Below are positions 8,361-9,944 of a stretch of DNA of 29,135 nt, piece after piece. The stretch's first letter is position 1. Every line of letters starts with the position of its first letter. Origin of the DNA: Bryobacterales bacterium (GTDB lineage: Bacteria; Acidobacteriota; Terriglobia; Bryobacterales; Bryobacteraceae). The DNA lies in NCBI GenBank assembly GCA_016789785.1, contig JAEUQE010000099.1:1-29135 (forward strand), written 5' to 3'. Under the pieces are notes generated by a model. The model was not told the DNA's origin. It saw only the letters and a list, made by a program, of their open reading frames with translations, and searched no databases. Position numbers and translations under genes: made by a program.

Positions 8361-9944
8361 ATGAAGTCCACCGCCACACGCCGCGCCGAGACCATGAGCG
8401 GCCTTCCCCTTGAGCCGCGCTACGGTCCGGAGCATGTGACACAACCGCCGCCGCCCGCGGGAGAGTTCCCGTACACCCGCGGCATCCACGAAACGATGTA
8501 TCAGGGCAAGCTGTGGACCATGCGCCAGTTCTCCGGCTTTGCGACGCCGGAGGAAACGAATGCCCGCTACCGCTATCTGCTCTCTCAAGGGCAGAACGGA
8601 CTATCCGTCGCGTTCGACCTGCCCACCTTGATGGGCGTCGATTCGGATCATCCGAACGCGGCAGGCGAGGTGGGCAAATGTGGTGTCGCAGTGAGTTCGC
8701 TCGAAGACATGGAAACGCTGTTTCACGGGATTCCTCTCGGCGACGTCACCGTGTCGATGACCATCAACTCGCCGGCGCCGATCCTCTTTGCGATGTATCT
8801 CGCAGCCGGCGAGCAGCAGGGCGTGCCCTGGGACCGCATGTCGGGCACGCTGCAGAACGACATCCTTAAGGAATACATCGCGCAAAAGGAGTATCTCTAC
8901 CCACCGCGGCCATCCATGCGTCTTGCCGTGGATGTCATCGAGTTCGCGGCCCGTCACGCACCGCGCTTCAATCCGGTCTCCATCAGCGGCTATCACATTC
9001 GCGAAGCTGGCTCCACGGCGGTGCAGGAACTCGCATTCACGCTTCGCGACGGCATCGAGTACGTCGATTGGACGCTTCAGCGCGGCCTTGCGGTGGATGA
9101 ATTCGCTCCCCGGCTGAGCTTCTTCTTCAACGCGCACAACGACTTCTTTGAGGAGATCGCGAAGTATCGCGCCGCCCGCCGCATGTGGGCTCACATCATG
9201 CGGGAGCGATTCGGCGCCAAGGACGAACGAAGCTGGAAGCTGCGCTTTCACACGCAGACCGCGGGCTGTTCGCTCACCTGGCAGCAGCCCTACAACAACG
9301 TGGTCCGGACCGCGATCCAGGCGCTTGCGGGAGTGATGGGCGGCACGCAGTCTCTGCATACGAACTCACTGGACGAAGCGTATGCTCTCCCGAGCGAGCA
9401 AGCCGTGACTCTGGCGCTGCGGACGCAGCAGATCATCGCGCACGAGAGCAATGTGACCGCCGTGCCCGACCCGCTCGGCGGAAGTTACTTTGTGGAATGG
9501 CTGACGGATCGTGTGGAAGCCGGGGCCAACGAGTATATCCGCCGCATTGATGAAATGGGCGGCATGATCCCCGCCATCGACGCAGGGTTTCCGCAGCGCG
9601 AAATCGCCGATGCAAGCTTCCGCTTCCAGCGGCAGGTGGAGCAGGGCGACGCGGTCATTACTGGCGTGAATCGTTTTCAGGCGCAGAATGACCAGCCCAT
9701 TGAACTGCTGCAGATTGATGAGTCGGCGGCCCGGCGTCAGGAAGAGAAACTGGCATCGCTCCGGAAGCGGCGTGACAACGCGAAGGTGCAGGCTACGCTT
9801 GATGCGATGAAGCGCGCCGCGGAAGCGCAGCAGAACACGATGCCGCACATTCTGGATGCGGTTCGCGCATATGCCACGGTGGGCGAGATCTGCGGCGCTT
9901 TCTACGACGTGTTTGGGTCGTACACAGAGTCCAGCGTCATCTGA
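8361..9944 (+). CDS. icmA: Isobutyryl-CoA mutase-like large subunit (B12-dependent acyl-CoA mutase)
   Basis: A 527-residue catalytic subunit of the methylmalonyl-CoA mutase superfamily: a substrate-binding TIM barrel only, without the cobalamin-binding domain, which must be a separate protein not in this window. Family landmarks are YTRGIHETMY, GLSVAFDLPT, NDILKEY, SISGYHIREAG (Y211, H212) and GGTQSLHTNS. Two specificity positions differ from methylmalonyl-CoA mutase: Tyr89 of the Propionibacterium enzyme is Phe57 here (RQFSGF), and Arg207 is Gln175 (EYIAQKEY). Phe and Gln are the residues described for isobutyryl-CoA mutase, which interconverts isobutyryl-CoA and n-butyryl-CoA. The ATG at 8361 is chosen; another at 8394 would also work. 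The longer frame upstream is antisense to the SDR gene. Its stop lies 2 bases from that of the convergent decarboxylase. Confidence 0.85.
   Translation: MKSTATRRAETMSGLPLEPRYGPEHVTQPPPPAGEFPYTRGIHETMYQGKLWTMRQFSGFATPEETNARYRYLLSQGQNGLSVAFDLPTLMGVDSDHPNAAGEVGKCGVAVSSLEDMETLFHGIPLGDVTVSMTINSPAPILFAMYLAAGEQQGVPWDRMSGTLQNDILKEYIAQKEYLYPPRPSMRLAVDVIEFAARHAPRFNPVSISGYHIREAGSTAVQELAFTLRDGIEYVDWTLQRGLAVDEFAPRLSFFFNAHNDFFEEIAKYRAARRMWAHIMRERFGAKDERSWKLRFHTQTAGCSLTWQQPYNNVVRTAIQALAGVMGGTQSLHTNSLDEAYALPSEQAVTLALRTQQIIAHESNVTAVPDPLGGSYFVEWLTDRVEAGANEYIRRIDEMGGMIPAIDAGFPQREIADASFRFQRQVEQGDAVITGVNRFQAQNDQPIELLQIDESAARRQEEKLASLRKRRDNAKVQATLDAMKRAAEAQQNTMPHILDAVRAYATVGEICGAFYDVFGSYTESSVI

Follow-up and report, generated by a model that had tools for sequence, protein, structure and literature searches.

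The gene at positions 8361..9944 (+ strand) of the 29,135-nucleotide stretch of Bryobacterales DNA analyzed here (the window) encodes an acyl-CoA mutase, which raises the question of which acyl-CoA it rearranges and from which protein it obtains its cobalamin. The reading frame translates into 527 aa without an internal stop, and the product has one PF01642 domain, with a TIGR00641 match, and lacks a B12 domain (Pfam and NCBIfam). The start is backed by similar N-termini in the close relatives P0002–P0004. The nearest named protein among the matches listed, P0004 from a Bryobacteraceae bacterium, is 88% identical, so the acidobacterial origin proposed from the sequence is sound. Comparison with the 88% identical orthologue of G080, which came nearest among 237 genomes queried with the mutase protein, gave a dN of 0.073 and a dS of about 2.1 (saturated), and this low dN against a saturated dS indicates purifying selection. 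The gene is intact and working. Translation, profile matches, and alignments identify its product as a large (substrate-binding) subunit of the IcmA type; it scores under the NCBIfam cut-offs for methylmalonyl-CoA mutase (MCM) and fused isobutyryl-CoA mutase (IcmF) and matches no equivalog for split IcmA. As expected from overall similarity, most database names for its clade say methylmalonyl-CoA mutase.

According to PMC7238569, which cites Jost et al. 2015 on this point, two columns are the specificity determinants of these enzymes, Tyr and Arg (Y/R) being the MCM signature. The sequence-only reading had placed Phe57 (codon 8529–8531) and Gln175 (codon 8883–8885, like the former in the + strand gene) in these columns. 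Alignment to solved structures, together with a multiple alignment including IcmA-type proteins, MCMs, and HcmA (4r3u), bore this out, with Phe and Gln (F/Q), not Tyr and Arg, at both positions. The column of Phe57 contains Tyr in human MUT and the M. extorquens MCM, the engineered Phe of the Y89F mutant in P. shermanii 5req, and Ile in HcmA, whereas the column of Gln175 contains Arg in the human, P. shermanii, and M. extorquens MCMs and Gln in HcmA. The underlying alignments, at 47–54% identity, place both columns unambiguously. A third pocket column has Ala84 in the window mutase and Asp in HcmA, which yields the triplets F/A/Q and I/D/Q, respectively. The numbering Phe80/Gln198 for IcmA, given in the sequence-only reading, was found in all five Streptomyces IcmA-type proteins checked. 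The 118-residue spacing of the pair, put forward as a further sign of IcmA kinship, carries no weight, as it is present in 15/15 aligned mutases, including MCMs.

The F/Q pair is not a chance variant. It was kept in 80/80 loci of a genome scan (the best 80 of 584 confirmed loci, which are thus similarity-selected) and in 119 of 120 listed proteins, among them the window mutase itself; the remaining one is without a match to the first motif. Phe and Gln at both specificity columns, as in the window mutase, mark an IcmA-type enzyme; an MCM would have Tyr and Arg for the carboxylate, and a 2-hydroxyisobutyryl-CoA mutase would show Ile and Asp at the pocket positions where the window mutase has F57 and A84. 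IcmF is defined by fusion of a B12 domain, a GTPase, and a mutase, and the window protein has PF01642 alone. Among plasmid-borne split mutases (L141–L146), those of Ilyobacter, Acetoanaerobium, and two Streptomyces carry Y/R, and F/Q is found in the Deinococcus (L144) and Natronosalvus (L145) mutases; the five with a listed product are all named methylmalonyl-CoA mutase family protein, despite the mixed signatures.

In this enzyme family, the large subunit binds the acyl-CoA and the B12 subunit brings adenosylcobalamin, whose homolysis generates an adenosyl radical, upon which the CoA-carbonyl group shifts between neighboring carbons. With Phe57 and Gln175 in place of Tyr and Arg, the holder of the methylmalonyl carboxylate would be gone, and the pocket would suit uncharged short branched acyl-CoAs. 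The reaction would most likely be the interconversion of isobutyryl-CoA and n-butyryl-CoA, with isovaleryl/pivalyl-CoA as possible further substrates. Judging from sequence comparison, we consider it likely that the window gene encodes the large subunit of an AdoCbl-dependent isobutyryl-CoA mutase of the split IcmA/IcmB kind, the substrate and role of which we infer. Knowing two pocket residues is not enough to define the substrate. HcmA is the top-scoring solved structure, as would be expected if the protein were a 2-hydroxyisobutyryl-CoA mutase, but its I/D/Q triplet differs from the F/A/Q of the window mutase, and seven separate I/D/Q proteins occur in the Acidobacteriota-class sample described below, each in a genome that also encodes an F/Q protein; this identity is highly improbable. 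The pocket residues disfavor both this identity and that of an MCM.

Differences between the two groups extend beyond the pocket. Seven alignment columns hold different letters, each fixed to ≥90%, in F/Q and stand-alone Y/R proteins. This is based on 127 F/Q rows (excluding four Streptomyces and two plasmid rows) and 22 Y/R rows, which are not independent because some loci overlap. Two of these columns are the group-defining signature; at the other five, IcmA (P0122) has the F/Q letter, as does HcmA at four. The IcmA-type pocket proposed at the outset stands. At Q165, Y211, and H212, which we take to be catalytic positions, the window mutase matches all four references compared, and K50, at what is presumably a CoA-contact site, is a conservative change from the Arg of these references. 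A tree of 59 rows, built with the two signature columns masked, separated 28 Y/R rows (including the 5req Y89F mutant) from 30 F/Q rows plus HcmA with 90/96 support, not starred. HcmA falls within F/Q and was flagged as a long row, the branches leading to IcmA and HcmA are both long, and a constraint holding F/Q alone together was not rejected (p-AU 0.215).

The surroundings of the gene say little about its pathway. Upstream lies a divergent SDR oxidoreductase (7469..8395, − strand) that has no counterpart in the G080 locus (L177); the listed start of this ORF overlaps the mutase start, and a later Met, at about 8251, is the more likely start. Downstream, a convergent PLP-dependent decarboxylase (PF00282; 9947..11353, − strand) and a dihydrodipicolinate-synthase family protein (11381..12304, − strand) are syntenic neighbors in G080. 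The stop codons of the mutase (9944) and the decarboxylase (9947) are two bases apart. Farther along the + strand, the window contains a polysaccharide export cluster (17577–20966; Poly_export/SLBB and Wzz-like proteins, both with counterparts in the G080 locus, plus a weak AAA match), a sulfotransferase-family protein followed by a PEP-CTERM-motif protein (24333–25716), and the start of a cytochrome P450 truncated by the window end (28572–29135). A phage collection gave two matches, both at <60% identity. No tRNA was found in the window. No RNA family reached the gathering threshold there or in eight related loci, which means that the search gave no sign of a cobalamin riboswitch.

None of the 25 window ORFs scanned with Pfam encodes a B12-binding protein, MeaB, or a second mutase, and tblastn gave no window match for the B12 subunit, NYN, or RidA, in agreement with the original remark that the cobalamin-binding subunit is not adjacent. 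The suggested role in valine or short-chain fatty acid metabolism finds weak support in the context, and the window showed no branched-chain or butyrate genes next to the mutase. The idea that these bacteria have an isobutyryl-CoA mutase because they lost the standard valine route is unsupported: a match over cut-off to TIGR01722 (methylmalonate-semialdehyde dehydrogenase) is present in 11/11 nearest genomes, and the usual valine route may therefore exist too.

Cobalamin would be bound by a distinct B12-binding protein of about 130 aa whose gene lies elsewhere in the genome, and it is the mutase gene that would have relocated. In the best 80 of 584 loci, several of which are limited by contig ends, a B12-binding ORF lies within the available flank in 48, and in 34 of these it overlaps the mutase or lies within 150 bases 3′ of it. 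Five relatives (L178, L179, and L181–L183) have the order mutase, B12 subunit, NYN protein, RidA. G080 and the window have in common the mutase, PLP decarboxylase, dihydrodipicolinate-synthase family, amidohydrolase, Wza, and Wzz genes; but G080 has its sole stand-alone TIGR00640 gene above the cut-off on a different contig, with NYN and RidA after it. The same B12–NYN–RidA arrangement, without a mutase in the available stretch, occurs in G082, G189, and G010. G080 has one further TIGR00640 match above the cut-off, which belongs to the C-terminal domain of a fused Y/R MCM; by elimination, the partner of the F/Q protein in this genome is the stand-alone subunit. An unlinked subunit in G080 explains why none is adjacent in the window, whose own genome would by extension from G080 have the same arrangement. 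As the G080 subunit still lies beside NYN and RidA, it was probably the mutase gene rather than the B12 subunit that departed from the block. A search for a separate B12 subunit and a MeaB-type chaperone, suggested earlier, succeeded for both in G080, and a MeaB match over cut-off was present in 10 of 11 near genomes.

Mutases and B12 subunits were counted across genomes, most of which are drafts, with B12 subunits counted only over the TIGR00640 cut-off and lower matches excluded. One sample comprised 61 genomes from the class of the Acidobacteria MAG of L020 (≥90% completeness requested), and the other 41 genomes from the class of the Anaerolineales MAG of L060 (Chloroflexota). Of 126 PF01642 rows in the Acidobacteriota-class sample, 112 were classified; the 14 left out are MutA-like chains or pieces in the fused-MCM genomes G125, G088, G094, and G114, another frame of G088, IcmF-like frames in G245 and G256, and short or contig-end pieces of G245, G248, G260, G283, and G287. 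Of 75 rows in the Chloroflexota-class sample, 71 were classified and four left out (an IcmF-like frame of G327 and fragments, one in G297 and two in G324).

A Y/R mutase is also present in 72 of the 73 F/Q genomes (45/45 in the Acidobacteriota-class and 27/28 in the Chloroflexota-class sample), and F/Q is therefore unlikely to be the cell's MCM. Both this and the five extra columns with IcmA letters speak against the F/Q protein being a methylmalonyl-CoA mutase with altered residues, an idea that the Chloroflexota gene neighborhood and the database names would favor and that we regard as very unlikely.

We return to the isobutyryl-CoA mutase reading and to the supply of B12 subunits. In 56 of the sampled genomes, a single F/Q large subunit occurs together with a single Y/R one, both of them stand-alone, and 55 of these 56 have one stand-alone B12 subunit over cut-off. 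The genomes of the first 20 relatives comprise 15 with F/Q and a stand-alone Y/R protein (the Y/R gene being broken or in pieces in G003 and G010), three with F/Q and a fused MCM, and two with F/Q only; a single stand-alone B12 subunit above the cut-off is present in all 20, split in G004 into two pieces at contig ends. The 11 nearest genomes divide into seven with F/Q, a stand-alone Y/R, and one stand-alone B12 subunit, two that additionally have a fused MCM, and two with F/Q and a fused MCM, the latter four having one B12 subunit besides the fused domain.

In the Acidobacteriota-class sample, mutases were found in 58/61 genomes: 35 with F/Q, Y/R, and one stand-alone B12 subunit; 10 with Y/R and one subunit (G245 and G256 also having an IcmF-like frame); seven with F/Q, Y/R, an I/D/Q HcmA-like protein, and two subunits; three with fused MCM only; and G088 (F/Q and fused MCM; one subunit), G247 (F/Q and two Y/R; two subunits), and G260 (F/Q and two Y/R; one subunit). 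The nearest same-strand large-subunit gene within 7 kb of the B12 gene in the 35 F/Q plus Y/R genomes was F/Q in 30 and Y/R in none, with no such gene in five; the B12 gene is unlinked in the 10 genomes with Y/R. Of the two B12 subunits in each of the seven genomes with an HcmA-like protein, one lies close to F/Q and the other close to the HcmA-like gene. This third mutase, with its Ile/Asp/Gln pocket and its own nearby B12 subunit, is seen at L360 and L363–L368.

The Chloroflexota-class sample (mutase in 38/41 genomes) gave 20 genomes with F/Q, Y/R, and one B12 subunit, 10 with Y/R and one subunit (G327 also with an IcmF-like frame), and five with F/Q and two Y/R, three of them with one subunit and two with two; in G304, which has F/Q and two Y/R, the sole subunit lies beside the more distant Y/R. 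G316 has F/Q and Y/R with two partial B12-subunit matches at contig ends, G297 has F/Q only with one subunit, and in G325, which has three subunit matches, F/Q is accompanied by a MutA-like chain and by a Y/R chain running into a B12 domain at a contig end. Three near-single-contig assemblies gave counts that agree with sharing of the B12 subunit: G279 (F/Q, Y/R, and HcmA-like) has two, and G302 and G318 (F/Q and Y/R) have one each. Weaker TIGR00640 matches are mostly on frames of about 1200 or 210–300 aa, presumably MetH and corrinoid methyltransferase proteins. Short B12-binding-like frames just under the cut-off in G330 (C49:11437-11841; 163 aa, 52.1 bits) and G332 (C18:45747-46118; 146 aa, 53.5 bits), and one further under it in G281 (165 aa, 38.7 bits), could be second B12 subunits.

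Eight Chloroflexota genomes have their Y/R, F/Q, and B12 genes grouped on the same strand, although a contig end truncates the B12 gene in G316, and five such loci (L445, L446, L447, L448, and L449) were re-read. L445 has the order carboxyltransferase-like, Y/R, CobA adenosyltransferase, F/Q, B12, MeaB, and L447 the order sodium-pump decarboxylase beta, Y/R, methylmalonyl-CoA epimerase, F/Q, B12, MeaB, so each of these two annotated operons has one MeaB gene; L446 also contains a methylmalonyl-CoA epimerase. The Chloroflexota F/Q gene is thus found amid methylmalonyl genes, namely epimerase, decarboxylase or carboxylase parts, and the Y/R MCM. That F/Q and Y/R adjoin one B12 subunit in these eight genomes could also mean that they form a heterodimer, with F/Q as a structural partner like MutA for MutB. 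We find this very improbable, given that the conserved active-site residues are retained in F/Q and that F/Q is found in the absence of a stand-alone Y/R protein in G075, G080, and G088 (all with fused MCM), G008, G018, and G297, although these are mostly drafts and G297 has an unclassified PF01642 fragment.

Gene context differs between lineages: some Acidobacteriota loci have carboxyltransferase, HMGL-like, and hydratase genes, the Chloroflexota have propionate genes, and the window has neither. Among the best 80 of 584 loci, the available flanks contain an HMG-CoA-lyase-like gene in 9, a carboxyltransferase in 16, and an enoyl-CoA-hydratase-like gene in 18 (gene clusters named after members checked), and in L024 the genes run mutase, B12 subunit, carboxyltransferase, HMGL-like, enoyl-CoA hydratase, thioesterase. 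Such neighbors would fit a mutase for another uncharged acyl-CoA (isovaleryl/pivalyl- or methylbutyryl-CoA) in leucine degradation, and IcmF also interconverts pivalyl- and isovaleryl-CoA, according to the part of PMC10481361 available. However, no protein of the L024 operon reaches the curated cut-off for a leucine-pathway enzyme, and these clusters have no member in the window or in L001–L016, the loci nearest to it. We regard a leucine role as possible but doubtful.

Taken with the isobutyryl-CoA mutase reading, the counts lead us to favor, with some reservation, the view that in many Acidobacteriota and Chloroflexota one B12 subunit is common to a Y/R MCM and an F/Q isobutyryl-CoA mutase. 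Such a single carrier would link, and may partition, propionate and butyrate/isobutyrate metabolism, and the window lineage would be a derived case, in which the fused MCM of the nearest relative would leave the split subunit to F/Q. This apparent sharing in relatives is a more interesting result than the window gene itself, which is an IcmA-type enzyme of a kind already known. If true, one B12 subunit serving two catalytic subunits would make substrate choice, cofactor delivery by MeaB, and subunit competition testable in a small reconstituted system. A literature search, mostly outside subscription papers, returned no description of an F/Q mutase of Acidobacteria or of a B12 subunit common to two mutases, which does not imply absence from print. 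Because the clade is mostly named as MCM, reconstructions of soil Acidobacteriota and Chloroflexota may place a propionate enzyme where a butyrate/isobutyrate isomerase exists; in the Chloroflexus aurantiacus annotation, three mut genes are all listed as MCM, as far as the accessible text goes (PMC3150298).

Among known systems, IcmA/IcmB of Streptomyces cinnamonensis is alike in its split large subunit, F/Q pocket, and separate B12-binding subunit. The comparison was made via Streptomyces relatives rather than the S. cinnamonensis protein, the window mutase being 54% identical to the Streptomyces IcmA-type P0122; it differs in being acidobacterial and known from sequence. IcmF has a homologous mutase domain, but the window mutase is unfused to a B12 domain or GTPase. 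HcmA is also of the split type, with Gln at the second site and 51% identity, and is set apart by its Ile and Asp in place of Phe and Ala. The MCMs (human MUT, P. shermanii MutB, and M. extorquens MCM) share the fold, the catalytic residues, and about 47% identity, and differ by Tyr/Arg instead of Phe/Gln and by chains of 727–762 aa instead of 527 aa. Finally, the isobutyryl-CoA mutase cluster of Syntrophothermus lipocalidus (Slip_0757-0760), as described in the accessible part of PMC5017805, differs from the window in that its genes adjoin those for an adenosyltransferase and MeaB.
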